Part shown: positions 1-23,937 of the stretch, piece after piece
Layout: the number at the start of each line of letters is the position of its first letter
How positions within the stretch are numbered: the first letter of the stretch is position 1
Source of the DNA: a virus
Strand: one strand, 5' to 3'
Length of the DNA: 23,937 nucleotides
IMG/VR virus record: IMGVR_UViG_3300049919_000065
Coordinates: 1 to 23,937 of that record
The notes under the pieces: generated by a model
Seen by the model: only the letters and a program-made list of their open reading frames with translations
The model's database searches: none
What the model was told of the DNA's origin: nothing
Translations under genes and position numbers: made by a program

Positions 1-23
1 GCCCAAACTTTCACCATCACCCC

Positions 24-50
24 GGTTTATATTCCAAACCAAGGAACCAA
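24..50 (+). promoter_or_regulatory. AT-rich box plus CCAAACCAAGGAACCAA leader before the first gene
   Basis: A TTTATATT stretch at about 27-33 is followed by the 17-base element CCAAACCAAGGAACCAA at 34-50, which ends five bases before the ATG at 56. A 16/17 identical copy lies upstream of the lysis gene that starts at 10916. Shorter versions precede the genes starting at 17289, 18525, 22739 and 23881. The AT-rich box could be a -10 element, with the CA-rich segment forming a short untranslated leader. That reading is inference; the repeat itself is directly visible. Confidence 0.5.
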
Positions 51-55
51 AGACA

Positions 56-373
56 ATGAGCACCAAAAAAATCCCCGCGAAAAAAGCGGCGGCAAAGAAG
101 GTGGCGGCAAAAAAAGCCGCCGTGAAATCCCCCGCAAAAAAAACCGCACCGGCAGCGAAAAAGCCCCGGTATGTGCCACCCGGCAAGCTGGCCAAGAAAG
201 CCGCCGCCAAGGCTCCGGCAAAGAAGGCACCCGCCAAGAAAGCGGCAAAGAAGGTGGCACCGAAGGCACCGGCCCCAATCAAGAAGGTGCCCAAAACACC
301 GCCGCCCAAAGCCGCCAAACCGGAAAAGCCAAAGGCTCCGCAATCCACCGCGCCAATTGATCCCAACCGGTAA
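56..373 (+). CDS. Lysine/alanine/proline-rich histone H1-tail-like protein
   Basis: The product has 105 residues and is almost entirely AKKA, PAKKA and KKAP repeats, with no folded domain visible. Such composition is typical of linker-histone C-terminal tails and of bacterial or phage nucleoid-associated proteins that bind DNA non-specifically, so a DNA-condensing or DNA-binding role is likely. The ATG at 56 follows the CCAAACCAAGGAACCAA leader. The ORF ends at an ochre codon at 371-373. The next ORF (386-877) is in the same reading frame and ends in a similar lysine-rich tail, so the two may be one interrupted gene with a globular domain flanked by two basic tails. The Lys/Ala repeats are low-complexity DNA but are not a CRISPR array. 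Confidence 0.7.
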   Translation: MSTKKIPAKKAAAKKVAAKKAAVKSPAKKTAPAAKKPRYVPPGKLAKKAAAKAPAKKAPAKKAAKKVAPKAPAPIKKVPKTPPPKAAKPEKPKAPQSTAPIDPNR

Positions 374-385
374 AAGAAAAACGGC

Positions 386-877
386 GTGTTGCATCCGGCA
401 CCGCGCACCATCGGTGGCGATCTTTGGGCCATTTGCGACGGCCTCACCAAAACGCTTGGCCGTGCGCCCGCTCGCTTTGAATATCGTGAGAAGGTGGAAG
501 CCGCCAACGTCAAGCGCGTTGAGGCCGGGGAAAAGCCCTATGATGTGAATTCCGTTTCTTTCCAATACTTCGCATGGCGGAAGTTCCACGGCGTTCCCGC
601 CCGCGCCTCCGGCATCTTCCCGAAGCGCGGAAGCTTTGAGGTTTCCACAAACAAGGAAGCCAAGGAAGCGGCCAGCAAGCCCGCCACGGCCCCGGAACCG
701 GAACCGGCCAAGAAGCCCGCGCCCGCTGCCAAAAAGGCCATACCGGCCAAGAAGGCGGCGAAAAAGACGGCTCCGAAGGCTCCGGCCCCCGAAGCTCCCC
801 CGGCTCCGCCGTCGGAAACCCCCGGAGTGTCTTCAAGGCTCGCCGGAGTGTCGGAAGCTGCCGCCCATTCCGCTTGA
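386..877 (+). CDS. Putative DNA-binding protein: small globular domain plus Lys/Ala/Pro-rich tail
   Basis: The product has 163 residues if read from GTG at 386; there is no in-frame ATG. The first ~80 residues look globular and contain the strings GGDLWAICDGL and FAWRKFHGV. These resemble a small winged-helix-like domain I recall from phage DNA-binding proteins, which usually begins near an NGV motif and ends in WRKFHG. The rest is a PAKKA-rich basic tail ending in an acidic/proline-rich stretch. NGV would be completed only by reading the four codons before the GTG, that is, through the region just after the upstream TAA. The gene may therefore be the second half of the 56-373 ORF, joined by readthrough or separated by a nonsense mutation. 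The domain assignment is from memory and not certain. Confidence 0.55.
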   Translation: MLHPAPRTIGGDLWAICDGLTKTLGRAPARFEYREKVEAANVKRVEAGEKPYDVNSVSFQYFAWRKFHGVPARASGIFPKRGSFEVSTNKEAKEAASKPATAPEPEPAKKPAPAAKKAIPAKKAAKKTAPKAPAPEAPPAPPSETPGVSSRLAGVSEAAAHSA

Positions 878-885
878 TTGATCTT

Positions 886-905
886 GCCGGGGCGGCAACC
901 CCGGC
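886..905 (+). terminator. GC-rich hairpin just after the 386-877 gene
   Basis: GCCGGGG (886-892) pairs perfectly with CCCCGGC (899-905) across a six-base loop, nine bases after the TGA at 875-877. No U-tract follows, so it is not a standard intrinsic terminator. It could protect the 3' end of the upstream mRNA or act as a weak attenuator. Confidence 0.3.
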
Positions 906-914
906 ATTGAACCC

Positions 915-991
915 GCCCGCCGGGGTTCCGCCCTTGAACCATTGCAAATCATCGGGACAAGTAAGGCAAGGAACCGGGAACCCCGGCGGGC
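915..991 (+). repeat. 15-bp perfect inverted repeat spanning the 878-1004 intergenic region
   Basis: GCCCGCCGGGGTTCC at 915-929 is the exact reverse complement of GGAACCCCGGCGGGC at 977-991. The 47-base interval contains a further short stem, CCTTG (932-936) with CAAGG (967-971). The right arm is followed by AACTTTTTG, so transcription on the plus strand could end there. The next start codon is at 1005. It may be a terminator/attenuator with a long loop, or a structured RNA that controls the 1005 operon. Confidence 0.45.
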
Positions 992-1004
992 AACTTTTTG
1001 AAAC

Positions 1005-1193
1005 ATGAAGCCTTTCAAACGCATTATCAAAGCCAAGGCTCCGCAAGGGCAAATTGACCGTTGGCACCGGAAGCGTCACCATGCGGATCAAATGGGTTGG
1101 CGATATGTCAAGCGGTGCAAATCGTTTTGCCGCAAGGCCAAGAAGTGGGATCGCATTCATGACAAATGGGCATCATACGCCGCCGGATTTTGA
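1005..1193 (+). CDS. Small highly basic protein of unknown function
   Basis: The 62-residue product is rich in Lys, Arg, His and Trp, with WHRKRHHADQMGWRYVKRCK in the middle and two cysteines (CKSFC) that do not form a recognisable zinc finger. The charge suggests nucleic-acid binding. It starts with ATG at 1005, immediately after the structured intergenic repeat. Its TGA stop is the first half of TGATATATG, whose last three bases are the start codon of the sliding-clamp-like gene, so it probably belongs to the replication operon. I do not recognise the family. Confidence 0.6.
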   Translation: MKPFKRIIKAKAPQGQIDRWHRKRHHADQMGWRYVKRCKSFCRKAKKWDRIHDKWASYAAGF

Positions 1194-1196
1194 TAT

Positions 1197-2168
1197 ATGA
1201 TTGAAACCCTAAAATTCGTCCGCGCTGCCGTTTGCAAGAGCGGGCACAATCCCGCGCAAATGCACTTCCGCATTCGTGGCGGCACGATCCAAGCCAACAA
1301 CGGGCGGCTTGCTATTCAATGCCCTTTCCCGTCGGATTTGGATTGTTGCCCGCACGCCGGGCTTTTCTTCAAGGCCGTGGCGGCTTGTGATGATGTGATT
1401 TCAATGCACATTGAGGCCGGGCGGCTCATTGTCCGTTCCGGGCGGTTCAAGTCATTTGTGCCCATTTGCGACAAATCCACCTTTCCAGAATTCCAGCCAA
1501 CCGGGGCAATGTTCCCCGTGCCGCAACCCATCATCCCGACGCTTCGCAAGCTCTTCCCGTTTGTCTCCGATGATGAGCGGAGGCCATGGGCTTGCGGCGT
1601 GCAATTCGTCAACAACTCCGCGATTGCCACAAATAGCATTGCCATTGTTGAGCATTGGATGCCCTTCGCGTTCCCGGTGATCGCCAACATTCCACGCGAT
1701 GCCATCGGGGAGCTTTTGCGCCTCAAAATGGAGCCGGTAAGCATCCAAGCTTCCCCGCACGCTGTCACGTTCAACTTGCCGGAAGGCGCATGGGTTGCGT
1801 GTTCCGTCTTGAAGTATGAATGGCCGGACGTTCAAAGCGTGTTCAATCGCGCTGCCGCTTATCAAGGAACATATATCAACGCCGGCCAGCTTGAATCATT
1901 GCTTGATGATGTTGCAAAGCTGGAAAACTTCGCGGATGAGTTGAAGGCCGTGCATTTCATTCCCGGCGCAATCTCAACGGTGCCAGCCGGGCACCCCGGC
2001 ACCTCCATTGAGTGCCCGCATTCCCCCGGCGTGGGGGTGTTCCGGGCGGATCAACTCGCCGCCTTGCGTGGCATTGTTGACCGCATCGGATTTGCCGCGT
2101 ATCCTTCCCCGGTGCCATTCTTCGGGGGCGATTTGTTGCGCGGTGTAATGGTTGGATTTCAAAGTTGA
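1197..2168 (+). CDS. DNA polymerase sliding clamp (DnaN-like) homologue
   Basis: The 323-residue product resembles phage beta-clamp-like proteins. The N-terminus reads as FVRAAVCKSG...FRIRGGTIQANNGRLAI, a beta-clamp first-domain pattern. Around residues 130-150, CGVQFVNNSAIATNSIAIVE matches the typical clamp strand pattern with G.....G.L.ATD.HRLA-like spacing. It is somewhat shorter than cellular DnaN (about 366 residues). A ring clamp would tether the DNA polymerase encoded immediately downstream, and the two ORFs overlap or nearly overlap at 2165-2174, which supports a shared replication role. ATG at 1197 lies directly in the TGATATATG junction, with no Shine-Dalgarno. The assignment rests on sequence pattern and context only. 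Confidence 0.62.
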   Translation: MIETLKFVRAAVCKSGHNPAQMHFRIRGGTIQANNGRLAIQCPFPSDLDCCPHAGLFFKAVAACDDVISMHIEAGRLIVRSGRFKSFVPICDKSTFPEFQPTGAMFPVPQPIIPTLRKLFPFVSDDERRPWACGVQFVNNSAIATNSIAIVEHWMPFAFPVIANIPRDAIGELLRLKMEPVSIQASPHAVTFNLPEGAWVACSVLKYEWPDVQSVFNRAAAYQGTYINAGQLESLLDDVAKLENFADELKAVHFIPGAISTVPAGHPGTSIECPHSPGVGVFRADQLAALRGIVDRIGFAAYPSPVPFFGGDLLRGVMVGFQS

Positions 2169-4138
2169 ACATCATGGAGCTTCAAGGTTTATTCTGGAAA
2201 GTTGACCCGCCAAAGAGCAACGAAAAGCGCACGCCGCCGGAACCCGTTTGGCTCGCTGCCGACTATCTCCCCGGCTTGGATGAGGCGCGGGCGTTCCGCG
2301 TGCCGCTCATGGATCATGCCGAATTGATGGCAGCGCAAGCGAGGCGGGAGCAATTGGTTTGTGATATTGAAGTATATCCGAATTACTTCCTTGCCGCCTT
2401 CATGAGCATGGAGACGGGCCGGGCGTGGTATGTTGAATTTGATTCTTCCGGCTTCGGCCAACTCATGGAACCGGCTTGGCTTTCATGGGTGTTGCATTCG
2501 TTTGAAATCTTCACCTTCAACGGGCGCAACTTTGATATTCCATTGCTTGCGCTGGCCTTGGCCGGGCGCACATGCGGGGAGCTTCACCACGCGGCCAAGA
2601 TGATAATCCAGCAAGAAATCAAACCTTGGCAAGTGCTCAAAACCTTCAAGGTTGATGAGCTTGAAATCAATCACATTGATTTGATTGAGGTTTGCCCGCT
2701 TTCCGGCTCATTGAAGATATATGGCGGGCGGCTCCATGTGCCGAAGATGCAAGATTTACCCTTCCACCCGGAAACCCCGCTTTCCCCGGAGCAAATCGCA
2801 ATCTTGCGTTGGTATTGCATCAATGATTTGACAACAACCGCATTTGTGGCCACCAACCTTGAAGAGCAAATCACGGTGCGGCGTGGCATGTCGGAAAAGT
2901 ATGATGTTGATTTGCGGAGCAAGAGCGATGCCCAAATTGCCGAAGCTGTAATCAAGGCGGAGTTGCGCCGGTTGAATGGTTGGGAACCGGATCGCCCGGA
3001 GATTGAGCCGGGAACTTCATACATGTATCACGTTCCCCCATTCATCCAATTTCACACGCCCGCCATGCAAACCGCTTTGGATGCCGTGCGCCGTGCGCGG
3101 TTCATCGTCGGGGAATCCGGGGCCGTTGAAATGCCGCCGGAGCTTTCCGGGCTTGAAATCAAGCTTGGAAAGGGCGCGTATCGCATGGGCATTGGCGGGC
3201 TTCATTCTTCGGAAAAGTGCGTTGCATATAAAGCGGATGAATCCTTCAAGTTGGTTGATCGTGACGTTGCCAGTTATTACCCTTCAATCATCCTCAACCA
3301 AAAGCTTTACCCGTTGCACCTTGGCTTTGACTTCCTCACGGTATATCAAACCATTGTATCCCGACGGCTCGCCGCCAAGAAGAGCGGAAACAAGATTGAA
3401 GCCGACATGCTGAAAATCACCATCAACGGCAGCTTTGGAAAATTCGGCTCCAAATGGAGCGCGTTGTATGCGCCGGATTTGCTCATTCAAGTTACCCTTA
3501 CCGGCCAGCTTGCGCTTTTGATGATGATTGAAGCCCTTGAAATGAATGGCGTTGAAATATGTTCCGCCAACACGGATGGAATCGTGATGAGATACCCCCG
3601 GATCATGGAGGAAACGGTTTTGCGCGTGGTGAAGGATTGGGAAACACGCACCGGCTTTGAGACGGAAGAAACCGAATATGCCGCGCTTTTCTGCCGCGAT
3701 GTGAACAATTACGTTGCGATCAAGCCCGGCGGGAAGGCCAAAACAAAGGGGGCTTACAACATCCCGGAAGGCATCTTCCGTTTCCACAAGAATCCCACCA
3801 ACCCCCTTTGTGTTGAGGCCGTGATTGCATATCTTGCAAAGGGGGTGCCAGTTGCGCAAACCGTTTGGAATTGCCGCGATATTCGGAAATTCATCACCGT
3901 GCGTGCCGTGAAGGGCGGAGCCGTCAAGGATGGGGTATTTTTGGGGAAGGCAATCCGCTGGTATTACGGCACGGAAACCGGCGGTGAAATCGTGTATGCG
4001 GCCAGCGGAAACAAGGTGCCCCAAAGCGACGGGGCCAAGCCGTGCATGGAGTTGCCGCCGGAGTTTCCGGGGGATGTTGATTTTGCCCGGTATGAGGCGG
4101 AAGCGGTTGGAATTCTCCGGGAAATCGCCGCCCTTTGA
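2165..4138 (+). CDS. Family B-like DNA polymerase with 3'-5' exonuclease domain
   Basis: The 657-residue product (counted from TTG at 2165, which overlaps the upstream stop by four bases; ATG at 2174 is the alternative) carries exonuclease motifs DIE (about 67-69), FNGRNFD (118-124) and YCIND (217-221). Polymerase motif A is DVASYYPS (367-374), motif B is KITINGSFGKFG (417-428) and motif C is ANTDG (468-472). The conserved thumb-region pattern appears as GGKAKTKGA (522-530). It would replicate phage DNA with proofreading. It is compact for family B, and motif C has Asn where the usual DTD has its first Asp; the second, metal-binding Asp is kept. The adjacent clamp homologue suggests the two act together. 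No helicase or primase lies in the window. Confidence 0.85.
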   Translation: MNIMELQGLFWKVDPPKSNEKRTPPEPVWLAADYLPGLDEARAFRVPLMDHAELMAAQARREQLVCDIEVYPNYFLAAFMSMETGRAWYVEFDSSGFGQLMEPAWLSWVLHSFEIFTFNGRNFDIPLLALALAGRTCGELHHAAKMIIQQEIKPWQVLKTFKVDELEINHIDLIEVCPLSGSLKIYGGRLHVPKMQDLPFHPETPLSPEQIAILRWYCINDLTTTAFVATNLEEQITVRRGMSEKYDVDLRSKSDAQIAEAVIKAELRRLNGWEPDRPEIEPGTSYMYHVPPFIQFHTPAMQTALDAVRRARFIVGESGAVEMPPELSGLEIKLGKGAYRMGIGGLHSSEKCVAYKADESFKLVDRDVASYYPSIILNQKLYPLHLGFDFLTVYQTIVSRRLAAKKSGNKIEADMLKITINGSFGKFGSKWSALYAPDLLIQVTLTGQLALLMMIEALEMNGVEICSANTDGIVMRYPRIMEETVLRVVKDWETRTGFETEETEYAALFCRDVNNYVAIKPGGKAKTKGAYNIPEGIFRFHKNPTNPLCVEAVIAYLAKGVPVAQTVWNCRDIRKFITVRAVKGGAVKDGVFLGKAIRWYYGTETGGEIVYAASGNKVPQSDGAKPCMELPPEFPGDVDFARYEAEAVGILREIAAL

Positions 4139-5250: not shown

Positions 5251-8200
5251 TCAAGGAATCACGGCTTCCGTTGAAAGCGTCAACTCCGGCCCCCATTTGT
5301 CAACCACGGCAACCCGCCAATACAAGGGCCGCGTTGGGGCTGGAATGGTCGCGTCAAGGGTTGTTCGGGTCGCAATCAGGTTGCCCGCCCCCGGCGTGAA
5401 TCCGGAGACGGTTGAAGCATACACCCGGAATTCAAGCTCATCCCCTTCCGTGGGGCCGTATGTCCATGTTGCGGGGTAATCCGTGCCCGTGGGGCTTCCC
5501 ACGGCCAGCGAGGCGGGCGCGGAGGCCGGGGCGGGGTTGGTGCGCGTAATGTCCGCGCTGGCACCGCTGCCGCCCGCGTTGAAGGCTTTCACGCGGAATT
5601 CAATGGCCCTCCCGGTGCCACCATCCGCCGTGTAATCGTCAAAGCTGTAATCCGCCCGGAGCGCGGAGCCAACGGCCATGGATCGTGCCAGAATGCCCCC
5701 GGTGTAAATGTCGGCAATGTATCCGTTGGCCCCGTTGACGGCCCCCCATTTCACCGTTGCTGTCAAGCCGGTGAAGGCCGGTTGCGTGGCGTTCAATTCC
5801 GGCGCGGGCGGCGGGTTGATATTACTTCCCACAATGAAGGGCGCGGATTGGGTGTAAATCACATTCCCATTGAGCGCGAAGGGTGCCACGCGTGCAATGA
5901 GCGTGCCGGGGTTGGTGCCAATCTCAACCGGCGGGGCCGCGAAGTTTCCGGCGGGGTTCCACGTTGCCCCATCGTCGTATGATGTTTGCAAGATATACGA
6001 AACGGCACCGGCAACCGGAGGCCAATCAATGTATGCGCGTTCCGCCTTTTCCGGCACCGGGGCGATTGTCACCCATTGCACGGTTGGATTGCTCCGGTTT
6101 TTGATTACCTTCACTTCCACCGCGTCAATCACTTCGGAATCCTCCCAACCATAAACGGCGGGCACGTAATTCATGCAAGATATTTCAACGGTGTTTTCAT
6201 CAATTGGGCGGATTGCGGAAATCTTGCCCATGAACGCCCAAACGTCGGCAACTCCGAAGGCATACAAAGGCGGCACGCGGTTTTCCGAAAAATCCAAAGT
6301 CTCCGGCGGATCGCTGGCAAGAATCACCTTGTTTGGTGCGCTGCCGGGGGTGCATGTGATGGGGGTTCCCATGATTGCCCCATCATCACCACGGATGGCG
6401 ATCTTGTGAACAACCACCGTTGTTGCGAAGTTCACTTGCTCCGAAAGCGTCATTTCATTTGTGCCGCTATTGTATGCCAGAATCATCCCACCTTGCCCAA
6501 CTCGCAACGTGTCATGAGTGATTGAAATCAAATCCATGAAAGCCGGAATGTGGCCTTCAAGCCCGGTTTGAAAGGTAACGGTTTTCCGTTGGAACTCCCG
6601 GCGGGTTTGAATATACATGCCCTCTTGATATGCCTTCTTGCGGCGAGTGCATCCGGGGAATTTCACCCGGTCAAGGTTAAGGCCAGCGCGGCCCGGCAGC
6701 ACGCAAGAAACCTCTTTGGTTTGCCAAGTGTCGGGGTCCGTGTATTCCACAATCACCCCATCAAAAGGTTGGAAATCATACATTTGGAGGGTCTTTTTCA
6801 AGCTCCCCTTTACGATATTATGTTGATTGAAGACGGCGGCGGGGAGGCTTTGCGAAACATCCCGCACGGCGGTAATGAGCGAGCCTTGCGGCACCGGCAA
6901 CGCACGCCCCACGCGGAGCGGCATCTTGGCGGCTTCCCACACGGTCAAGCTTCCGTCAAAGATCCAATCAAACCAATCCTCACGGGTTTCATAGGTTGCG
7001 GCCAGCGCGGCCAGCGTTGGCATATCAAGGAACTCGCTGGAAAGCTTCGCACCATAGGCGGAGCGGAAAATATCGCAAAACGCCCAAATGGGATTCCGGG
7101 TTGGCCCGGAATCAATCGCGCTCACCCATCCATCAACGGCGTTCCATTGTGGAAGCTTCCGGGTTGCAACAACATTGAAACGCTTGGAAGATGAATCGTT
7201 CAATGAATTCGTTGCCAAAGCCTTCATTGCAATGAGGGTGACGCTTCCAAAATTGGCATTCAATTTGGCATAGCCTTTGACAGTCTCCCAACGCACTTGC
7301 GAAGATACGCGGGTTGATCCGGGTTTGTCACTCACCCGACGGCCCCGCACTTGGTAGCGGCCAGCGGGAACGGCGGTTGAATAGGTGATCCGTTGGGGCG
7401 TGTTGTCTTTGCGGCTCACGGTTGGGTTTGCCAGCGTTTGCCATGTTCCAATCGGGTCCGCATCGGCATCAATTTCACGATATTCAAAGAGCAATTCCAC
7501 GGTTTGGCTTTGCAAATCGCCCTCATCATCAAGCTTGTAAAGACCTTGCGGAAAAGATATATCAACGGCTAAACGCTTAACATCATTATCCGCATCATTC
7601 ACCACGAATGGCCCGGAAACGCCCGTGTAATCATCTTCATTGGGGCCAAGCAATTCAATGTTTGAAACCTCAATGGCGGTGAAAACATTGGCCTCAATCA
7701 AATCAACGGTTCCGCCCGGTTGGATGATTTCTATTTCAACTTCCGTGAAATCGTCAACCGGGGTATCATCAAGCATGATGCTTTCAAAATCAAACCGCCC
7801 TTGGCCGATGCAAAAGAGGCTGTATTGATATTGCTGGTTTCCGATGTATTCGGAATAAGGCCGGGCCGCATAGCTTGGCCAGTGACGGCATTTGCCATAC
7901 ATTACTTCAATCGGCTCATTGGGCCGGAATCGGTTGGTTTGGCCCCGGAGGGTGTAAACGGAATCCGGGCTTTGGGTTTGATCCGTCGGAATCTTCGGGT
8001 CCGGCATCAAGAGATAAGCCGCCACCCCGACAACAACGGCCACAATGAGGGCAACAATCAAAACCTCAATCCCTTGCGGCACATGCACGAAAGCGGCAAC
8101 GTCTCCCGGCTGGAATTGACGCGTTGCCCAATCGGCACGCATCACAAGCTCGCCATTCCATTGCAAGACGGTTGGCCGGTCAAATTCTTCAAACTCCGGG

Positions 8201-8310
8201 CCGAAGTGCTCCGCCAACCATTCACGCGGCGTGATGCCGTCGGATGCTTGAAAGCGTTCAATATCATGGAGCGGATTGAACGGGTTTGATATAAGAAGAA
8301 TTTGCGTCAT
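5251..8310 (-). CDS. Tail tip / host-specificity protein (lambda gpJ-like, with gpI-like N-terminus)
   Basis: The 1019-residue product is the longest in the window and lies directly after the NlpC/P60 gene (ATGA overlap at 8307-8310), the K-J order of lambda-like siphophages. Residues 1-80 resemble the small lambda gpI-type domain. A hydrophobic segment follows at about 82-102 (VLIVALIVAVVVGVAAYL), then the baseplate-hub-like body (PNEPIEVMYGKCRHWPSYAA onward). The last ~280 residues read as three fibronectin-III-like modules, for example AERAYIDWPPVAGAVSYIL and TATVKWGAVNGANGYIADIY. It would form the tail tip, contact the host receptor and help DNA entry. The stop codon is embedded in the TGATATATCA palindrome at 5244-5253. 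Confidence 0.85.
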   Translation of the reverse strand: MTQILLISNPFNPLHDIERFQASDGITPREWLAEHFGPEFEEFDRPTVLQWNGELVMRADWATRQFQPGDVAAFVHVPQGIEVLIVALIVAVVVGVAAYLLMPDPKIPTDQTQSPDSVYTLRGQTNRFRPNEPIEVMYGKCRHWPSYAARPYSEYIGNQQYQYSLFCIGQGRFDFESIMLDDTPVDDFTEVEIEIIQPGGTVDLIEANVFTAIEVSNIELLGPNEDDYTGVSGPFVVNDADNDVKRLAVDISFPQGLYKLDDEGDLQSQTVELLFEYREIDADADPIGTWQTLANPTVSRKDNTPQRITYSTAVPAGRYQVRGRRVSDKPGSTRVSSQVRWETVKGYAKLNANFGSVTLIAMKALATNSLNDSSSKRFNVVATRKLPQWNAVDGWVSAIDSGPTRNPIWAFCDIFRSAYGAKLSSEFLDMPTLAALAATYETREDWFDWIFDGSLTVWEAAKMPLRVGRALPVPQGSLITAVRDVSQSLPAAVFNQHNIVKGSLKKTLQMYDFQPFDGVIVEYTDPDTWQTKEVSCVLPGRAGLNLDRVKFPGCTRRKKAYQEGMYIQTRREFQRKTVTFQTGLEGHIPAFMDLISITHDTLRVGQGGMILAYNSGTNEMTLSEQVNFATTVVVHKIAIRGDDGAIMGTPITCTPGSAPNKVILASDPPETLDFSENRVPPLYAFGVADVWAFMGKISAIRPIDENTVEISCMNYVPAVYGWEDSEVIDAVEVKVIKNRSNPTVQWVTIAPVPEKAERAYIDWPPVAGAVSYILQTSYDDGATWNPAGNFAAPPVEIGTNPGTLIARVAPFALNGNVIYTQSAPFIVGSNINPPPAPELNATQPAFTGLTATVKWGAVNGANGYIADIYTGGILARSMAVGSALRADYSFDDYTADGGTGRAIEFRVKAFNAGGSGASADITRTNPAPASAPASLAVGSPTGTDYPATWTYGPTEGDELEFRVYASTVSGFTPGAGNLIATRTTLDATIPAPTRPLYWRVAVVDKWGPELTLSTEAVIP

Positions 8311-9615: not shown

Positions 9616-10272
9616 TCAAGCGGCAATTCGGATGAACTTACGGACGGATGAAATGGAGCGGGTGCGCTTGTAAACGCCATCACCTTCCCGGCTCCCGCTG
9701 CCGTCCGTGTTGGCTTCAATGGTGATGATGCTTGATCCATCAACCCCGACAACCAAGCCGACATGTGAGGCCGTGGCGAGTGTGAAAATGTCGCCCGCCT
9801 TCGGGGCCGTGGTAAAGCTCACGCCCTTTGCGGCGTTGGCCGTCGCCCATTTCTCAAAGTCATAGGCCAGCGGGGAGCGCGGCAGCGAGAAAGGCACCGT
9901 GCGGCCCCCTACTGCTTCACGGACAAGCCAACACATGAACGCCGCGCAATATGGCTCCCGGTTTTCGTATCCGTCGGGATAGGTGGTTGCGCTCCAAAAC
10001 TTCTTGATTTCCGGCCCTTGGTTTTTGGAAGTCTCCCGGACGTTCAAGAGCAATTGGCCCTTGGCAAGCTCAACCATAATGGCGGCAACGGTGCCCGTTT
10101 GGGGCTTGCCTTCGCTGGCCGCTTTGGATGCTTCAAAGGCGGCAACCGCCGCCCGTGTTTTCGGCCCCTCATCACCATCAATGATGCCGTATTTGGAAGG
10201 GGCCGGGCCGAAGTCATAGCCCAAAGACTTCAACCCGGTTTGAATAAGAAAGGTGCGCGTGTCGTATGGCAT
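9616..10272 (-). CDS. Endolysin: peptidoglycan-binding-like N-terminus plus CHAP amidase/peptidase
   Basis: The 218-residue product begins with a helical repeat pattern typical of PG-binding-1 domains (about 5-70: LIQTGLKSLGYDFG, then GDEGPKTRAAVAAFEASK). The second half has the CHAP triad: Cys109 in EPYCAAFMCWLV, His170 in SHVGLVVGV and the Glu/Asn pair in TIEANT (about 186-188). It should cleave peptidoglycan peptide or amide bonds at lysis. No signal peptide is present, so release needs a holin. It sits between the holin/lipoprotein-like gene and the coiled-coil membrane gene. A virion-associated lysin is the alternative, since it lies amid tail genes. Confidence 0.8.
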   Translation of the reverse strand: MPYDTRTFLIQTGLKSLGYDFGPAPSKYGIIDGDEGPKTRAAVAAFEASKAASEGKPQTGTVAAIMVELAKGQLLLNVRETSKNQGPEIKKFWSATTYPDGYENREPYCAAFMCWLVREAVGGRTVPFSLPRSPLAYDFEKWATANAAKGVSFTTAPKAGDIFTLATASHVGLVVGVDGSSIITIEANTDGSGSREGDGVYKRTRSISSVRKFIRIAA

Positions 10273-10289: not shown

Positions 10290-10916
10290 TCATCCGGCAA
10301 GGCTAGGTTGCGTGCCCGGCGGCAAGCCGTCAAGCGTGATTCCGGCCTTGGAACTCCAACCCACCCAAACCCCATCCGGCGTGCGGTATTGAATCCGGGT
10401 TTCCTTGGTGGCCACAATATACGTTGCCCGGAGCTTCACGCCGTCTGCGTTTGTCCATTCGGTGCGGTATGCGTAAATCTCACCCTCCCCGCCCGCACAC
10501 GGCCCGGCAGCGTAAACAACGCCCTTTTCCGTGCGTGTGATGAGGAAGCAACCGGCATCATCCGGGGCGTTGAGCTTCAAGCCGCAACCCGTGAGCATGA
10601 AGCCCGCGCAAAGCAAGGCCAACATATACAAACCAACCCGGCCAAGGCCAAGGCCGCTTTTGTATGATCCATCAAGCTTGCCGTTGTCGATTAAATCGGC
10701 AACGGTATTGAAAGCCGGTTTGGCAGCGACAAGGCCAAGGGCAATCTTTCCGATATTTCCGGCGAGCGGGTCCGGCAGCATGGCGAGCACGGCGGCGGTT
10801 TCCGGCGAGGGAATGACAAGCGAGGCGGCAAGGATGCCGACAAGTTGAATTGCATTCAAGGCAATCACCCGAATGGGCACCTTGGTTGACAGTGTTGCGG
10901 TTTTTAATGGTCGCAT
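10290..10916 (-). CDS. Holin-like membrane domain joined in frame to a lipobox lipoprotein domain
   Basis: The product has 208 residues. Residues 17-65 contain hydrophobic segments (VIALNAIQLVGILAASLVI, then IGKIALGLVAA) like a small holin. After a polar linker with K86 and R93, residues 94-111 form a second signal-like segment ending in the lipobox LTGC (108-111). A ~97-residue secreted-looking domain follows, with two more cysteines. Either one protein has both parts, or an internal start (ATG for M98, or the valine codon at 94) also makes a lipoprotein separately, as an outer-membrane spanin would be. The upstream leader is the CCAAACCAAGAAACCAA copy. It leads the lysis cassette. Confidence 0.55.
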   Translation of the reverse strand: MRPLKTATLSTKVPIRVIALNAIQLVGILAASLVIPSPETAAVLAMLPDPLAGNIGKIALGLVAAKPAFNTVADLIDNGKLDGSYKSGLGLGRVGLYMLALLCAGFMLTGCGLKLNAPDDAGCFLITRTEKGVVYAAGPCAGGEGEIYAYRTEWTNADGVKLRATYIVATKETRIQYRTPDGVWVGWSSKAGITLDGLPPGTQPSLAG

Positions 10917-12516: not shown

Positions 12517-14016
12517 TCAAGGGATTACAAGTTCAAATGAGGGTTTCAAAAACACTCCGCCCGCATTATCGGTGGCGAGTGTGCCAACATCTTCAAGCAC
12601 TGTCAAAATTTCAAATGAGGCGTTTCCGAATACCCCTCCGGCGTAATCGGTGCCAATGTTTCCAACGTCTTCAACAACGGAAATGAGTTCAAGGGTTGGC
12701 TTGGCAAAAGTGCTTTCCGCATAGTCATTGCCAACGCTGCCAATGTTCAAAATAGTATCTTTAAGTTCAAAGGTTGGCTTGCCAAAGATTCCGCCCGCCT
12801 CATCCGTGCCAACGTCTCCCAAATCCACAATGAACGGCCCGCGTGTGATGAGCACGTTACCAAGCCCGGTGATGAGCAAGCCGAATTCCGGCGTTGTTGC
12901 GTAAATGTGAAGGGAAATCGTTTGCCCGGCATCCGGGTTGACGATGAAAAACTTGCCTTCCGCATCAAGCATTTTGCGGTTGGCCGTCACGTTGACGCGG
13001 GGGCCGTAGTATTCGGGATATGGTCTTTCCGCCGATGGCAACACCGTTTGCGCGGTGATCCGGTCAAGGCTTGCCGATACCCGGAAAGTATCGTGAAAGG
13101 TATATGATTCCGAATACTTGCCGCCAACAAAGCGGACAATCACCGGGATGAACTGGCCATCAACCGGCAGCGTGAGCCAAAAGGGAAGGCTCCCGGATTT
13201 CAAAGTTGTATAAAAGAAATCTTGAAAGGTTTGGAGTTGGGCAAGCGTGAAATCAAATTCAACATTGTATCCCTTTACCGTGGTTTCAAGCCCCGCCCAT
13301 TGGCGAGCGTGCCCGCTTTCCATATCAAGGCGGGATGCCTTGCGCTCCGCTCCCACGCGAAAGGCGCGGTTGAGGTTGGGGAGCGTTCCCGGCCAGCTTG
13401 GCACGGCCTCCGGCGGCAGCGGGTCAACATCTTCGGAGGTGATGAGGGTTTCACCGTCGCCAAGGTTTTGAATACCAAAGTAAATGTATTGGGTTTCATC
13501 CGTCGGGGGGTATATCCGCAACGTGGTTGTTGATCCATCATCCGGGCGCACCGTCAAAAGGGCGTTGCGATGCGCCAAGGTGAGGTTTTGGGAGGCCGTC
13601 GGATCAACGGCCAGCCGGAGCCATTGGGGGATTGGCAAGGTGCGGTTTGAAGGCGCGATGGCCACAATCATGCGCTCAATCCGGGCGGTGACGTTCCACC
13701 AAAGCGCATTCTTGTGGGAAGCCTCATATGATCCGCCAACAAAGCGCACGGGTTGGGTTTCATAAGCCCCGTCCTTCGGCAAATCCAAGCCGAAGATGAG
13801 CACGCCGCCAATGAGGGTTTCCGCAAACCATTCTTCAAACGCGGCAAGCTCATCCTCCGAAAGCTGCCAACTCACATTGTAAGTTTCACGCCCGGTGGCG
13901 AAACGGCCAAATTGTTCAATCAAGCCGTTTTCAAGGTCCGTGCGCACCGTTGGCGTTTCCGCATTGGCCGAAAGGGAAACATCGGGAGCCGGGAAGTTGG
14001 TGGGATAGGGAATCAT
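12517..14016 (-). CDS. Minor tail protein with internal duplication and C-terminal tandem repeats
   Basis: The 499-residue product directly follows the tape measure (ATGA overlap at 14013-14016), the place of lambda gpM-type distal tail proteins. It consists of two related ~195-residue halves. ETYNVSWQLSEDELAAFEEW and PVRFVGGSYEAS in the first half match KGYNVEFDFTLAQLQTFQDF and IVRFVGGKYSES in the second. Residues 397-499 are four ~26-residue repeats around GTDYAGGVFGNASFEI. The duplicated unit probably forms a tail-tip ring-type beta domain. The repeat tail may be an adhesion or multimerisation module. The function is inferred from position and fold-like pattern; no family name is certain. 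Confidence 0.65.
   Translation of the reverse strand: MIPYPTNFPAPDVSLSANAETPTVRTDLENGLIEQFGRFATGRETYNVSWQLSEDELAAFEEWFAETLIGGVLIFGLDLPKDGAYETQPVRFVGGSYEASHKNALWWNVTARIERMIVAIAPSNRTLPIPQWLRLAVDPTASQNLTLAHRNALLTVRPDDGSTTTLRIYPPTDETQYIYFGIQNLGDGETLITSEDVDPLPPEAVPSWPGTLPNLNRAFRVGAERKASRLDMESGHARQWAGLETTVKGYNVEFDFTLAQLQTFQDFFYTTLKSGSLPFWLTLPVDGQFIPVIVRFVGGKYSESYTFHDTFRVSASLDRITAQTVLPSAERPYPEYYGPRVNVTANRKMLDAEGKFFIVNPDAGQTISLHIYATTPEFGLLITGLGNVLITRGPFIVDLGDVGTDEAGGIFGKPTFELKDTILNIGSVGNDYAESTFAKPTLELISVVEDVGNIGTDYAGGVFGNASFEILTVLEDVGTLATDNAGGVFLKPSFELVIP
12520..12828 (-). repeat. Four ~26-residue tandem repeats at the C-terminus of the minor tail protein
   Basis: Repeat cores read VGTDEAGGIFGKPTFEL, VGNDYAESTFAKPTLEL, IGTDYAGGVFGNASFEI and LATDNAGGVFLKPSFEL, separated by linkers such as VLEDVG. 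The fourth ends the protein. The repeats have diverged at DNA level but keep the GTD.AGG.F..P.FEL pattern. Confidence 0.8.
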
Positions 14017-16523
14017 GCGCGTTTGCCTCTTGACATGTTGTAAGTGCCTTCCATGGCGCGTGCAACTTTGGTGCCACCCTTTGAAATATCATTGGCAACC
14101 CTTTCGGCAGCTTGGCCGATGATGAATTCAATCATTTCCTTGTTTCCATCCATGCGCCGGGTTTCCTTCACCGGCTCCCCGCTCATGTTGATGATCTTCA
14201 CTTCAACATTGCTTCCGCCGGAGGCTTGCGCCCCGCCCATGCGATCCCATGTTGATTGCGCGGAAGTCACCATGGCGGGGCCGCGCACAAGCTCCGGCCC
14301 GGCCTCGCCAACCAAGCCATACTTGCCCGCCGGGATGGCTCCCCCGATGGCATACGCGCCGGAATAGCCCCCGGAATCGTCCGTGCTCTTGATCTTTTGG
14401 ATATTGGCCAAACCGGCGGCGATGGCAGCACCGGCAGCGGCAGCACCCAAAGCCGGGCCAACGTAAGGGATGCCAGCAAGCGCGGCGTAAGCGGAGGTTG
14501 CCGCTTGATATGTCTTCACGGTTGTTTCCGCGATTGCCGCCGCCTTGGCGATCTTCGCGCCCTTCTTGCCGAAGGCTCCCGCGATTTGGGAAATGTTGCC
14601 CATGAAATCGGCAGCGAGGCCAAGGGCAACCTCATTGCGTTCCGTTTCATGCTTGCGCATGGAAGCGGTGTATTGCAATTCCGCCTCATTGAGCATTTTG
14701 AGCTTTTCGGCTTCCGTCAATTCGGTTGCCGAAAGGATGATTTCCTTTCGCTTTGCATATGATTCTTCAATGATGCGCTCTTCCTCCGCAAAGGCTTCAA
14801 ACATCCTTTCCGGTTGATCCTTCATTTTCTCCAACCGGCGGCGTTGCTCTTCCTCAAATTTTTCAGTCAAAGAAATTTCAAGCTCCGCTTGGTATGCGGA
14901 CCCTTCGCGGGTGTTCTTTTCAATTAAGTCAAAGCGGCGTTGATACGATTCTGAAATCAAGCTTTCTTGCTTGCGCAATTCGTCTTCAAGCGTCTCCCAT
15001 TCCCGGCTTTCCTTTGATGCTCCGCCGCCACCCTTCTTGCCCTTTGCGGTTGGGGTTGCCGTGCCGCCGCCGTCGCCAACACGGTATTTGGCAAGCCTAT
15101 CCTCCCGGATCTTCGCACGCGCTGCCGCATCCTTATCATATTCGGCCCGCTTTTGATCCGCCTCACCTTCAAGCATCGCGGCCCGGTCAATTTCCTTTCC
15201 AGCCTCTTGCCAATACTTCGCAACGTCTCCGGTGACAACTTCGGCATTGATGCCGATTTTTGCCATGGATTGTTCCCACGCTTTGCGGGAGGTGTTGGCG
15301 GCTCCGGTAATATCATCGGAAACGCCCGCCCATGCCTCCGCGAAGCCTTGACCCGCGCTCTTGTTTGAAAATGGATTGAGGGCGTTGCCAATGGCCGCAC
15401 CGGCCCGGCCAGCGGCTCCAATGAGGGCGTTGAAGCTGGCCGCAATGGTTTGATATATCGCCTTGCCAACTTGCACGGCGGAATCAACCAAGCCGAAAAG
15501 AATCACGCCCATGGATTGCACATAAGAGCGGTATCCGATGATTGCCGCCTTCATACCACCCATCAAGCCTTCCGAAAGCGTCATTCCGGTTTGCTGGCCT
15601 TCCTTGCCGTGATCTTGCAATATCTCATTGAGGTATTGAACCCCGGCGGAAACGTCTTCAACATACCCACCGAAGGCAATGCCCCAACCGTCAATTGCGG
15701 CTTGGATTTGGCCGGATTCAATTTGGGCCGTCAATTCGGCAACCAATTCGGTGATGTTGCGGATTGAGGCTTCAACGAATTCGCCAAGCCCTTCCTCCCC
15801 GATTGTGGCCTTCAAAACATCCCACGAATCACCAAGGTTTGAAAATGCGCCTGTGAGCGTTTCCATTTGCCGGGCCATGCCGCCGCCAAAGTTTTTCTCA
15901 CCCAATTCAATGAAATACTTTTCAATATCATTGATGTTGTTGGCAACCGTGGTTTTTACGCCACGGAATGTGAAAGATATATTTTCGCCCTCTTTTTGGG
16001 CGCGGATGCCAAACCGCTTCAAGTTTTCAAATTCACCCGCCGTGGCGTTTGATACAGCAAGCACCATATCCGAAAGCGAGGCACCAAGGCTTGATGCGGT
16101 ATCGCCATACGCCCGCAAGGCACGCTCCGAAGGGGTGAGGCCGCGATTGACAAGCGCAATGAATGCGCCGGTTGCTTGCTGTAAATCGTAAGGGGTGGTT
16201 GCGGCAAAATCCTTGATTGCCACAAATGCGGCGGCGGCGTTTTCCGCGCTGCCGGTGGCGGTGACAAGTTGGGCGTTGAGTTGCTGGAATTCCGCCGTTG
16301 TCTTGATGATCGCACGAATACCGGCAATGGCTCCCGTCACCACGGTTGCGCCCGCCGCGAAGGCATACAAGCCCTTCAATGAAGATGAAATCCGCGATCC
16401 GAAGCCCTCAACCGTTTTGGTGGCTTTGGTGCCCGTTCCTTCCAGCTTTTTCAAGCGGGCTTCCGCCTTGTCAATGGAATCGTAAAGGATGCGGATTTGA
16501 AGGCTTGTAATGTCTTCCGTCAT
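14013..16523 (-). CDS. Tape measure protein
   Basis: The 836-residue product has the classical layout. A helical N-terminus has an early Ala/Gly-rich hydrophobic segment (AFAAGATVVTGAIAGIRAII). The next region reads FAATTPYDLQQATGAFIAL and shows the tail-length-protein pattern. Long charged helices follow (EEQRRRLEKMKDQPERMFEA). The Ala/Gly-rich hydrophobic stretch near 710-750 (YVGPALGAAAAGAAIAAG) is followed by the typical GLVGEAGPELV motif. It sets tail length and travels with DNA at injection. By the usual rule of about 0.15 nm per residue the tail would be near 125 nm. It overlaps the chaperone frameshift product upstream and the minor tail gene downstream by ATGA. Confidence 0.9.
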   Translation of the reverse strand: MTEDITSLQIRILYDSIDKAEARLKKLEGTGTKATKTVEGFGSRISSSLKGLYAFAAGATVVTGAIAGIRAIIKTTAEFQQLNAQLVTATGSAENAAAAFVAIKDFAATTPYDLQQATGAFIALVNRGLTPSERALRAYGDTASSLGASLSDMVLAVSNATAGEFENLKRFGIRAQKEGENISFTFRGVKTTVANNINDIEKYFIELGEKNFGGGMARQMETLTGAFSNLGDSWDVLKATIGEEGLGEFVEASIRNITELVAELTAQIESGQIQAAIDGWGIAFGGYVEDVSAGVQYLNEILQDHGKEGQQTGMTLSEGLMGGMKAAIIGYRSYVQSMGVILFGLVDSAVQVGKAIYQTIAASFNALIGAAGRAGAAIGNALNPFSNKSAGQGFAEAWAGVSDDITGAANTSRKAWEQSMAKIGINAEVVTGDVAKYWQEAGKEIDRAAMLEGEADQKRAEYDKDAAARAKIREDRLAKYRVGDGGGTATPTAKGKKGGGGASKESREWETLEDELRKQESLISESYQRRFDLIEKNTREGSAYQAELEISLTEKFEEEQRRRLEKMKDQPERMFEAFAEEERIIEESYAKRKEIILSATELTEAEKLKMLNEAELQYTASMRKHETERNEVALGLAADFMGNISQIAGAFGKKGAKIAKAAAIAETTVKTYQAATSAYAALAGIPYVGPALGAAAAGAAIAAGLANIQKIKSTDDSGGYSGAYAIGGAIPAGKYGLVGEAGPELVRGPAMVTSAQSTWDRMGGAQASGGSNVEVKIINMSGEPVKETRRMDGNKEMIEFIIGQAAERVANDISKGGTKVARAMEGTYNMSRGKRA

Positions 16524-17322: not shown

Positions 17323-18525
17323 TTATGCCGAAGGCGCGGCGGGGATTTTGGTGATGATGATGTTGGAAGCCGTCACCGGATCAAGGATGCCTTGGAAGGG
17401 CATCGCAAGGGTGATGCTTCCTTGCCCGCTAACGTCCGGTTGCCCGCCCGTGAATTTGAAGCGCGGGATTGTGAGCACATACGAATTGCCTTCACCGTCG
17501 GGAAGCTCAATGGAAAGCGAAGTGTTTTCTTCATTGAGGAACTTTTTGAGGAAGGCGGAGCTTTCAAAATACACCGTTGCGGAGCCGGTGAGATTGGAGC
17601 GGCCAGCCGACGGGCGGAGGGTGAACTTGCTGCCAACCACGTTGCGCACTTCCAAACCGTTTTCAAGGTTGATGGAAAATTCGGTGACTTCACCAACCAC
17701 GTTGGCACCCTCCCGCAATTCGCCCGTGAAGGCATCAAGCGGGGCCGTGTCGGGGGCATCGGCAAAGGTGGCACCGGAGGGCGCGGTATTGGATGGGGCA
17801 ACGCCTTGACGGCCCAACGCGCCAAAGTTGGCCGTTACGATGGCCGTGGGGTTCACCGCGATTGCCAGCGTGTTGAATTCCACCCCGTTGAAAAGGTGGT
17901 AAGGCTCACCCTCGCCGCTTGCGGCAATGTCCGTGAAGTGCCGGAGCAATGAGAAGGAACGGCGCACGGTGCCAGCCTTCAAAACCTTGGCCGTGGTTTC
18001 AACCTTGTGGCCAGCGGCGGCGGCCTCATCCGCAAGAGCGGTGGCGGGCGTGCCGTCGGGTTTTTCCACAATGAGCTTGCCAGCGGCAACGCTTGTGATG
18101 CGGAAAGTTCCGTTGTTGGCCGGAGTGGTGAAGGAAGATGAGGTAATCAAATCCCCGACTTGGAAACCGGCGGTGACAAATCCGTTTGCGGAATCATTGA
18201 AGGAATCATCCGAAGCTTGAACCGAAAGCGTTGCGGCGGTTTTGGTGGCCTTCGGGGTCCATGTGCCCATGAGCACGGCTTCAAGAAGATCATCAAAGCT
18301 TTCAAAGGAAAGTTCCGTGTTCAAGTCACCGGCAACGGAAATGGCACCAAGCCGGAAATCGGCAATTTGGCGATCCGGGCGCAATTCTTCGGATTGGAGG
18401 CTTCCCCGTTGAACACCTAGCGTGCATCCGACATGGCGGAGCCGCTTGAAAGGTGGGTTGGCGGGCGTGGTTCCATATGTTGCTTCGGCAACAAAATGGG
18501 CGGCGTGGCGGGCGGCATCACTCAT
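17323..18525 (-). CDS. Major tail tube protein
   Basis: The 400-residue product begins AARHAAHFVAEATYGTTP, the start pattern of siphophage tube proteins. It contains ISVAGDLNTELSFESFDDLLEAVLMGTW and, near the C-terminus, IELPDGEGNSYVLTIPRFKFTGGQPDVSGQGSITLAMPFQGI, all typical of the tail tube family. A ~75-residue insertion at about 95-170 (FQVGDLITSSSF...KVET) looks like a surface decoration domain. It forms the tube around the tape measure and is expected to be one of the most abundant virion proteins. It lies just before the chaperone pair, as usual. Its start is preceded by GATATACCAAACCAA. The stop is TAA. Confidence 0.87.
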   Translation of the reverse strand: MSDAARHAAHFVAEATYGTTPANPPFKRLRHVGCTLGVQRGSLQSEELRPDRQIADFRLGAISVAGDLNTELSFESFDDLLEAVLMGTWTPKATKTAATLSVQASDDSFNDSANGFVTAGFQVGDLITSSSFTTPANNGTFRITSVAAGKLIVEKPDGTPATALADEAAAAGHKVETTAKVLKAGTVRRSFSLLRHFTDIAASGEGEPYHLFNGVEFNTLAIAVNPTAIVTANFGALGRQGVAPSNTAPSGATFADAPDTAPLDAFTGELREGANVVGEVTEFSINLENGLEVRNVVGSKFTLRPSAGRSNLTGSATVYFESSAFLKKFLNEENTSLSIELPDGEGNSYVLTIPRFKFTGGQPDVSGQGSITLAMPFQGILDPVTASNIIITKIPAAPSA

Positions 18526-21338: not shown

Positions 21339-21341
21339 ATA

Positions 21342-21761
21342 TCAAGGGGGCGTTGGGGTTGGGGTGAATGAGCCGCATTGAATCACGCCCATTGTGTAAA
21401 TGATGGGGGTTGCACCATCGGGGGCAAGCGGAGTGCATCCGACAACTTGCCAGTTGGTGCCGTTGATTACGACAATATCAAGAGCTTCCGGTGAGAATGG
21501 CGCACCCTTGGCGGCAGCAAGCACGGTGCGGAGTTTGCCCCGGATCAATGCTTCCTTGAATGAATCATCAAGGGAATTGAAAATTTGCCCCTTGTATCGG
21601 GGTAAGACAACGGCGGTGATTTCCCCGGCCAGCGTTGGCGCATCCGTGGGAATGCCGGTAACGTCATTGAACGTGACAACGGGCCGGAAGATTTGAAATT
21701 TCTTCCCGGCCTTCGCAATCGACTTCAACGCATTGGCGGCATTCTTTTCGTAATTTGCCAT
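21342..21761 (-). CDS. Head closure / head-tail connector protein
   Basis: The 139-residue product reads KKFQIFRPVVTFNDVTGIPT, then GEITAVVLPRYKGQIF, then EALDIVVINGTNWQVVGCTPLAPDG. This is the beta-barrel layout of siphophage head closure proteins that sit under the adaptor ring. Its place after the adaptor and before the gp10-like gene is standard. The TGATATATC junction separates it from the upstream gene by six bases. The C-terminus ends in a short TPTPTPP tail. Confidence 0.65.
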   Translation of the reverse strand: MANYEKNAANALKSIAKAGKKFQIFRPVVTFNDVTGIPTDAPTLAGEITAVVLPRYKGQIFNSLDDSFKEALIRGKLRTVLAAAKGAPFSPEALDIVVINGTNWQVVGCTPLAPDGATPIIYTMGVIQCGSFTPTPTPP

Positions 21762-21767
21762 GATATA

Positions 21768-22274
21768 TCAAGCCCGGATCACTTTGATTCCCCCGAAGCC
21801 CCCGGAGGAAATGAGGGGTTCCAAAAATGCGCGGACCTTGGCAAGATAGGGTTGAGGGGCACCGCCCGCGCCCGGCGCGTATTCGGTTTCCAAAACGTCA
21901 ACCTTTTCGCGGATCACTTCGCGCCCGTCTCCCGTCGGCATCAAATCGGTGCCCGCTGCCGCCTCAATGGCAAGTTGCGATTGGGCGAATTTGAGCACTT
22001 GCGGGATATGGTCAACCGGAACTTGCCAGCCATCCAAAACAACGCCCGTGCGGGGCCATTGGAGGGCTTGCGTTGCCGGATCAACCTTCTTGCCTTGATA
22101 CTCACCCCGGAGGCTTTCCAAGTAGTCCATGGCCACAATCAAAGCGGCCTCAACTTCGGAATCATCAACGGGAAGATTGGATGCACGGGCTTCGGCAAAA
22201 GCCCGCGCATCCGCAACCCCAACATACGAATTGGCACCCGCAACCAAGGAACCGTTTTCAATCACAAGAGCCAT
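21768..22274 (-). CDS. Head-tail adaptor protein (DnaT-like / gp6-like family)
   Basis: The 168-residue product matches the phage family annotated as DnaT-like SSB or head-tail connector. The pattern begins MALVIENGSLVAGANSYVGV and continues DARAFAEAR, ALIVAMDYLESLRGEYQG, ALQWPRTGVVLDGWQVPVDH, REKVDVLETEYAPG. Helices of this protein bind the portal to begin the neck. Despite the DnaT name, context with capsid and neck genes indicates a structural role. ATG at 22274 follows a CA-rich 36-base gap with no Shine-Dalgarno. Confidence 0.8.
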   Translation of the reverse strand: MALVIENGSLVAGANSYVGVADARAFAEARASNLPVDDSEVEAALIVAMDYLESLRGEYQGKKVDPATQALQWPRTGVVLDGWQVPVDHIPQVLKFAQSQLAIEAAAGTDLMPTGDGREVIREKVDVLETEYAPGAGGAPQPYLAKVRAFLEPLISSGGFGGIKVIRA

Positions 22275-22310
22275 GTCCGTTTGTGTGTTGGGGTTGAAGC
22301 TTTCCCGGAA

Positions 22311-22739
22311 TTACTCGCCTTCGGCTTCCGGGTAGAAATGGGCAAGGTAAAGCTCCGCAAGCTTTTCGGTTTTCGCGTTGGCATGATATTCAATGCCCTC
22401 CGCGTCAAGAGCCGCTTTGAGGCTTTCCCGGTCTTCCGGGCATCCCTCGCCATCGGGGAGGCCAATGGAGTTCAACTTGCGATCAACAACGGCAAGGGAT
22501 GCGGGCTTGGCCGCTTCCTTGGTGAGCTTCCCGGCGTTGTCATAGTGGGGAAGGTCCGCGTATTGCGGAGGGATGGGAGCACCGGCGGTGCCTTCGCACG
22601 TTTCCGCACGCTCATTGCCTTCAATGCTGCCGTTGCGGAAGACAACTTTCTTGCCGGTGGCGGCGTTGATGGCCGTGGCGGCTTCCTTGTGTGCTTCCCG
22701 GACGATACCGGCAGCGACGAAAAAGAGGATTGCTTTCAT
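22311..22739 (-). CDS. Small head-region protein with HeH/LEM-like C-terminal motif
   Basis: The 142-residue product has an N-terminal hydrophobic stretch (MKAILFFVAAGIV). A middle region reads ATAINAATGKKVVFRNGSI. The C-terminus, ESLKAALDAEGIEYHANAKTEKLAELYL, resembles HeH/LEM-type extension modules often found in proteins next to phage capsid genes. It may be a head decoration or completion protein. It lies downstream of the MCP and a strong terminator, with a CAACCAAGAAACCAA leader. The family is not certain. Confidence 0.55.
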   Translation of the reverse strand: MKAILFFVAAGIVREAHKEAATAINAATGKKVVFRNGSIEGNERAETCEGTAGAPIPPQYADLPHYDNAGKLTKEAAKPASLAVVDRKLNSIGLPDGEGCPEDRESLKAALDAEGIEYHANAKTEKLAELYLAHFYPEAEGE

Positions 22740-22753
22740 GATGTTTGTATATG

Positions 22754-22770
22754 TTGGTTTCTTGGTTGTT
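22754..22770 (-). promoter_or_regulatory. CAACCAAGAAACCAA leader before the small head gene
   Basis: The minus strand reads AACAACCAAGAAACCAA, 14/17 identical to the element at 10926-10942, and is followed by CATATACAAACATC and the ATG at 22739. It lies directly downstream of the capsid terminator, so a new promoter here is plausible. Confidence 0.45.
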
Positions 22771-22781
22771 TATTCGGGTAG

Positions 22782-22820
22782 AAAAAAGGCGGGGCGGCTC
22801 CGGGATGGAACCGCCCCGCC
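22782..22820 (-). terminator. Intrinsic terminator after the major capsid gene
   Basis: On the minus strand GGCGGGGCGG (22820-22811) pairs with CCGCCCCGCC (22797-22788), with one mismatch and three more pairs toward a five-base loop, and is followed directly by six T. This is a textbook factor-independent terminator. It lies 26 bases after the MCP stop and would lower expression of the downstream neck and tail genes relative to capsid. Confidence 0.88.
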
Positions 22821-22846
22821 GGAGGTTTGGGGCGGATTGGGTGCGA

Positions 22847-23881
22847 TTACTTGGTTTCCAGAATCACGCCCGCAAGGTCTTTGATGTCCGTTGCGGTGCG
22901 ATCCCAATTCGTGGAAGTGGTAAGCGCGGCAGTGGTGGGAGACTTCCCGCCGTTGCTCTTATCCCATGCAAAACCCTTGATGGCGACGTTGTAAGACCAT
23001 TCGGATTGAATCGTGCGGTCAATGTTTTCGTTGCCGTTTTTGGTTTCGATGTTTTGCTCAAAATCGTCGTTGTCTTCAACCATCACCGCGCCGGGAACTA
23101 GGCCAAGGTGGAAGTAGGAAGGAACGGCAACGGAACCCCCAGCATCACCATCCGCGCTTGAACCGTCGCCATCATCAATGCCGGTGGCGTTGATGAGGGA
23201 AGCGGAATCGGTGATGATGAACGGACGGCCAAGCGGATCACCAAGCACGCGCACCGATTCATAAGTGAAAAGGTTGGCAGCGTTGGCGAGGTTGGCACCC
23301 ATCAAGTCAAAGGTGGGAAGCGAGTGCATCACCCAACACGCGATGCGTGCGGCACGATCACCAAAGGGCTTGGTGGCGGTGTTGAGGGCGACATACGAAA
23401 CGATTCCGGCCTTGCCATTGGTGACAACGCCGGTGCCGGTAAAGCCGCCGGTGCTCACTCCCGAAAGGGCCGCACGGGCCGCGCCCGCTCCGGTGTTGAG
23501 CATGTCCGCAAGCATCGCAATTGCGAGTTGCTGGCCATAAACAACGCCTTGCTCTTTCGGATCTTTGAGAATCCATTTCATGCGGCTTGGCGGGATGTTC
23601 ACCGGAGGGGTGCCAGCGGCAACCTTCACGGAAGTATCCGCAAGTTGTTCCAAGTCGATTGCGGAAACGGCCCCGGAGCCGTAAGCATCACGGCGGCGGA
23701 CAAGATTTTCCATGCGCTTCCAAAAGGAAACATCGGAAAAATCGCCATCGTTGCGTTTCACGACAAGCACAATCGCGCCATTGCTGGCCGCGTTGAACTT
23801 GTCAACTTGTTGGGTGAGGGTTTCCGTCATGGAACCCTTTGCGTATTGGCTGAAAACTTTCAGCGAGGATAGACCGGCCAT
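22847..23881 (-). CDS. Major capsid protein
   Basis: The 344-residue product shows a phage capsid pattern. The N-terminal part reads VSFWKRMENLVRRRDAYGSG. The middle contains DRAARIACWVMHSLPTFDLM and VRVLGDPLGRPFIITD (domain with the usual G.P..V.D type loop). The C-terminal part contains YFHLGLVPGAVMVEDNDDFEQ, then NIDRTIQSEWSYNVAIKGFAWD. The C-terminal Ala/Trp-rich end (STNWDRTATDIKDLAGVIL) is typical of major capsid proteins of this type. It builds the icosahedral head. ATG 23881 is preceded by CTCCAAACCACC. A strong terminator follows it, in line with high, separate expression. Confidence 0.82.
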   Translation of the reverse strand: MAGLSSLKVFSQYAKGSMTETLTQQVDKFNAASNGAIVLVVKRNDGDFSDVSFWKRMENLVRRRDAYGSGAVSAIDLEQLADTSVKVAAGTPPVNIPPSRMKWILKDPKEQGVVYGQQLAIAMLADMLNTGAGAARAALSGVSTGGFTGTGVVTNGKAGIVSYVALNTATKPFGDRAARIACWVMHSLPTFDLMGANLANAANLFTYESVRVLGDPLGRPFIITDSASLINATGIDDGDGSSADGDAGGSVAVPSYFHLGLVPGAVMVEDNDDFEQNIETKNGNENIDRTIQSEWSYNVAIKGFAWDKSNGGKSPTTAALTTSTNWDRTATDIKDLAGVILETK

Positions 23882-23937
23882 TGTTTTAGGTGGTTTGGAG
23901 TGGTGATGATATATGGTTTATGCGTGCGGTGGTATTC
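23882..23937 (-). promoter_or_regulatory. Upstream region of the major capsid gene
   Basis: Minus-strand sequence includes CATATATCATC, then CTCCAAACCACC, then AAAACAATG, the same AT-box plus CCAAACC arrangement seen before other non-coupled genes. No gene end is visible in these 56 bases; a scaffold or protease gene probably ends further right. Confidence 0.4.

Follow-up and report, generated by a model that had tools for sequence, protein, structure and literature searches.

A siphophage genome fragment devoid of GTAC, and the loss of this word in phages of alphaproteobacteria

Results

GTAC is missing from the whole fragment

The tetranucleotide GTAC is absent from the window, the whole stretch of 23,937 bases (positions 1 to 23937) analysed here, which covers part of a lytic-type siphophage genome and was taken from an IMG/VR virus record. 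The loss is total, occurs at the level of DNA, is conserved in the clade, has arisen repeatedly and, in other phages, depends on the host group. The initial annotation had found no GTAC by eye and supposed that dozens would be expected by chance; the computed count is indeed 0. The expected number is 91.5 (about 92) from base composition, 28.9 (about 29) from a second-order Markov model, and 43.1±5.6 from synonymous codon shuffling within each gene, the lowest of 300 runs giving 30. Hence, GTAC lies far under expectation with both composition and codon-preserving nulls (0 versus 29, 43 and 92), and it is a short palindrome with a known Type II specificity, that of RsaI (PMC6256690). Its z is the lowest of all tetramers, and it is the sole tetramer at zero. 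GGCC, CCGG and CATG are common, as had been stated. CTAG had been described as rare, with four occurrences. The count is right (positions 10303, 18417, 18629 and 23098), but the low number follows from the scarcity of CTA and TAG, given which the word shows no deficit (4 versus 2.0 expected).

The codons used around potential sites are consistent with this count. After a G, tyrosine is encoded by TAT in 41 cases and by TAC in none, while in other contexts TAC outnumbers TAT by 93 to 72 (Fisher p = 4e-13). In addition, C never follows a GTA (Val) codon, and T never occupies the third position of GGN or CGN codons preceding AC-. GTAC is depleted in all three codon phases, which shows that the target is a DNA word and not a codon.

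Named phages gave no near DNA-level match to the window. Its recognizable genes are listed in Table 1, and a scan of about 30 ORFs of this phage fragment revealed neither a restriction nor a methylase gene. Small Lys/Ala-rich proteins with AKKAPAKK-like repeats, recalling histone H1 tails, are encoded on the plus strand of the window (56-373, no Pfam match) and of locus L007 (1649-2326). Alignments of the capsid and polB proteins against genome contigs gave no usable link to a host. A Bartonella-labelled MAG was rejected as such a link, its two polB matches being just 40 % identical.

Table 1. Features located in the window
Feature	Position	Strand	Evidence or remark
Stretch without GTAC	1..23937	.	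IMG/VR virus fragment; 0 vs 29-92 expected, 43±6 with synonymous shuffling
DNA polymerase processivity factor (clamp)	1197..2168	+	phrog_947, E 1.6e-48
Family B DNA polymerase (polB; basis of the GTAC-loss tree)	2165..4138	+	phrog_1252, E 5.5e-203
Tail tip attachment protein (J-like)	5251..8310	-	phrog_469 and PF24801
Endolysin with CHAP domain	9616..10272	-	PF05257
Tape measure protein	14013..16523	-	phrog_1538
Tail tube protein	17323..18525	-	PF18906
Major capsid protein, Gp13-like	22847..23881	-	PF20036, E 6e-115

Other words are avoided in the window

Under the synonymous null, TCGA (6 versus 85 expected), TTAA (9 versus 74) and CAGG plus CCTG (4 versus 94) are also scarce in the window, and the TA dinucleotide stands at 0.37. 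CAG/CTG, at 0.18 of expectation, is the lowest of 125 loci, the next one being at 0.39. What is left of it lies mostly inside GCCAGC or GGCAGC, and glutamine is encoded by CAA 225 times and by CAG 13 times. GAG/CTC, on the other hand, is normal once the dinucleotides of the window are allowed for. The avoidance of TCGA, TTAA and CAG/CTG indicates that other forces act on the window too. Avoidance of TCGA, TTAA and CAGG/CCTG to this degree is not common to the relatives, among which the 44.8 kb contig G002 has 116 TCGA for 123 expected and also differs in TTAA. GTAC is the only total deficit of the window and the one that its relatives have in common.

GTAC loss runs through the clade and has arisen repeatedly

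The initial annotation had proposed a comparison with relatives, and in this comparison the loss runs through the clade of the window, more distant relatives being mostly normal. Relatives at 63–84 % protein identity are also depleted, with observed over expected counts of 0/31 in G002, 1/33 in L003, 1/28 in L014, 0/11 in L001, 0/13 in L004 and 1/7 in L013; L005 is a partial exception among these close relatives (3/7). At 45–53 % capsid identity, GTAC is nearer normal, and in several of these phages, Burkholderia phage KL1 among them, the avoided word is GATC (1–4 versus 46–124 expected). The 75 polB sequences include 12 from GTAC-free phages, and on their tree the loss requires six changes or more. 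Among loci of at least 6 kb, in a tally that counts near-duplicates, elimination is most frequent for GTAC (23) and GATC (21), followed by GGCC (3). In single cases other words are missing: CATG and GGCC are both at 0 in L036/L037, and CCGG, CGCG and GGCC are all at 0 in L089. Neither methylase nor restriction nuclease was found in the ORFs scanned of G002, which is near-complete, or in those of G021, an independently GTAC-free contig.

GTAC loss follows the host in other phages

The window has a GTAC-depleted relative in RcTitan, a Rhodobacter phage whose host is R. capsulatus YW1. We therefore considered R. capsulatus phages that PMC8601537 places in unrelated clusters, with counts that cover all or most of each sequence. 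All lytic ones tested have 0–1 GTAC: RcDurkin 0/225, RcZahn 0/145, RcSimone-Hastad 0/70, RcGingersnap 0/53 and RcTitan 1/79, to which RcRhea (0/9) and RcOceanus (0/8) add expected numbers too small to inform alone. The temperate or Mu-like R. capsulatus phages, counted on 20–25 kb pieces, lie at about one third to three quarters of expectation (prophage RcapNL 6/17, Mu-like RcWaterboi 9/17 and Mu-like RC1 19/25). The capsid of Pseudomonas phage YuA shares 72 % identity with the RcSimone-Hastad capsid, and this phage has 188 of 208 expected sites; KL1, a relative of the window, has 147 of 148. These unrelated R. capsulatus phages, set against YuA and KL1, and the repeated changes on the polB tree support the view that GTAC loss follows host and not phage kinship. 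This argument concerns phages other than that of the window, in a modest, hand-picked sample.

Beyond R. capsulatus, phages Paracoccus R3 (2/133), Sphingomonas Lucius (0/81) and Loktanella pCB2051-A (0/22) are nearly GTAC-free, and GTAC is retained in Ruegeria V18 (36/63), Dinoroseobacter R4C (13/26) and Rhizobium RHph_TM16 (62/82). Therefore, as the Ruegeria and Dinoroseobacter phages show, not all Rhodobacterales phages are affected. Lucius (L139+L178) has eliminated both GTAC and GATC (1/116). In chromosome pieces of 29 alphaproteobacterial genomes (leaving out L146 and L147, which came from another search), GTAC is mildly low, at about 0.7 of expectation. Hence, the word is not simply rare in alphaproteobacteria.

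GAG/CTC is nearly erased in Septimatrevirus-like phages

A separate deficit concerns a trinucleotide. In Septimatrevirus-like phages, GAG/CTC is nearly erased from both strands, at about 1-3 % of expectation: 10/1517 in RcTitan (L131), 12/1459 in Paracoccus R3 (L138+L177), 29/1449 in KL1 (L025+L042+L043) and 27/1524 in Lucius (L139+L178). The unrelated RcOceanus (L132+L179) is at 6 % of expectation, and one GAG/CTC occurs in the 6.6 kb of L001, which shares 84 % tail protein identity with the window. AAG/CTT is over-represented in the GAG/CTC-poor phages. In the annotated RcTitan genes checked, glutamate is encoded by GAA 487 times and by GAG once. A Vsr-type nuclease (PF03852) was rejected as the cause, being present in 0 of 35 records. 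The search for a gene common to RcOceanus and other GAG-poor phages returned just structural or weak matches, and no known restriction type that explains the loss was found. We found no text dealing with GAG or CTC as distinct words in the KL1 genome paper. Compared with the GTAC loss, this trinucleotide deficit of related phages is perhaps the more unusual lead.

Discussion

We consider it likely that a lineage of lytic-type siphophages erased all its GTAC sites under host Type II enzymes of the RsaI type, which cut unmodified GTAC. Long exposure to a host defence directed at this word, as suggested in the initial annotation, is the best-supported cause: loss at the DNA level, its extent over the clade, the six or more changes and the host pattern all argue for it. 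A Type II restriction system cutting GTAC is the simplest form that such a defence could take, and a cutting enzyme would then be the agent. Every GTAC in entering DNA would be a cutting site for the host enzyme, and phages with fewer sites would survive entry. Sites would be removed over time, largely via synonymous choices such as TAT for TAC after G. By analogy with the GTAC-free phages of Rhodobacter, Paracoccus, Loktanella and Sphingomonas, the host of the window phage is probably an alphaproteobacterium. The required specificity exists in this group, since Rhodobacter blasticus 28/5 has RsaI, with m4C at GTAC; R. sphaeroides 2.4.1 has no GTAC methylation (PMC6256690). Such systems are therefore patchy, yet available to the group.

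The strength of the general biases in the window (TA, CAG/CTG, TCGA and TTAA) might suggest that GTAC disappeared as a by-product of extreme word or codon preferences, without any selection on GTAC itself. This is most improbable, because no site is observed against a null that keeps the codons of each gene, the relatives differ in their word biases and have just the GTAC loss in common, and both G021 and the R. capsulatus phages are GTAC-depleted with other palindromes near normal. A phage might also encode its own GTAC-specific nuclease or modification system and keep its genome site-free for that reason. The window is a fragment, so that such a gene could lie in the rest of the genome, and an N6/N4 methylase domain is encoded by G029 (L095), a relative that is GTAC-free. 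However, neither methylase nor restriction nuclease turned up among the ORFs scanned in the window, G002 and G021, PF01555 is missing from five other GTAC-free records, and unrelated R. capsulatus phages are GTAC-free without an obvious common gene of this kind, which makes a phage-encoded system very unlikely.

It is also rather improbable that GTAC was targeted chemically in a way that does not involve classical cutting, for instance by PabI-type base excision. Enzymes of the PabI family remove the adenine of GTAC when the site is unmethylated, and they limit the growth of phages; genomes that have held them for a long time are GTAC-poor (PMC10273834). The extension of the loss over phages of several alphaproteobacterial genera would fit. 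Nevertheless, the family was described from Pyrococcus, Helicobacter and Campylobacter (PMC10273834), and RsaI already provides the needed specificity in Rhodobacter (PMC6256690). Sequence statistics do not distinguish cutting from PabI-type chemistry. A broader proposal combines an as yet undescribed, taxon-wide GTAC defence of Rhodobacterales and Sphingomonadales, escaped by nearly all of their lytic phages, with a separate trinucleotide constraint (GAG/CTC in most related phages, CAG/CTG in the window) that known restriction systems do not explain; we hold this combination to be unlikely.

In dsDNA phages, site elimination typically affects palindromic Type II sites and occurs in phages that are non-temperate (Rusinov et al. 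2018, PMC6286503); as there, a short palindromic site is near zero here. In haloviruses of the HF1 group, palindromic tetramers are wholly absent across the virus group and the absence is ascribed to host defences, but these are archaeal myoviruses with known hosts, and the words are GATC and CTAG (PMC7230728). RsaI of R. blasticus recognises GTAC within Rhodobacter and is missing in R. sphaeroides 2.4.1 (PMC6256690). PabI and HpyAXII share the recognition word, and GTAC is rare in genomes long exposed to them; there, however, the loss is in cellular genomes, of Helicobacter, Campylobacter and Pyrococcus, and here in phages (PMC10273834). In the literature that we searched, which was limited, no description was found of GTAC loss in Rhodobacter phages or of its elimination over unrelated R. 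capsulatus phages.

Overall, the window provides a clear-cut case of site elimination, and the comparison across phages amounts to a natural experiment in which the missing word is set by the host and not by phage ancestry. GTAC-free genomes could help to assign hosts to metagenomic phages, and GTAC-cutting systems are predicted to be common in Rhodobacterales and Sphingomonadales.
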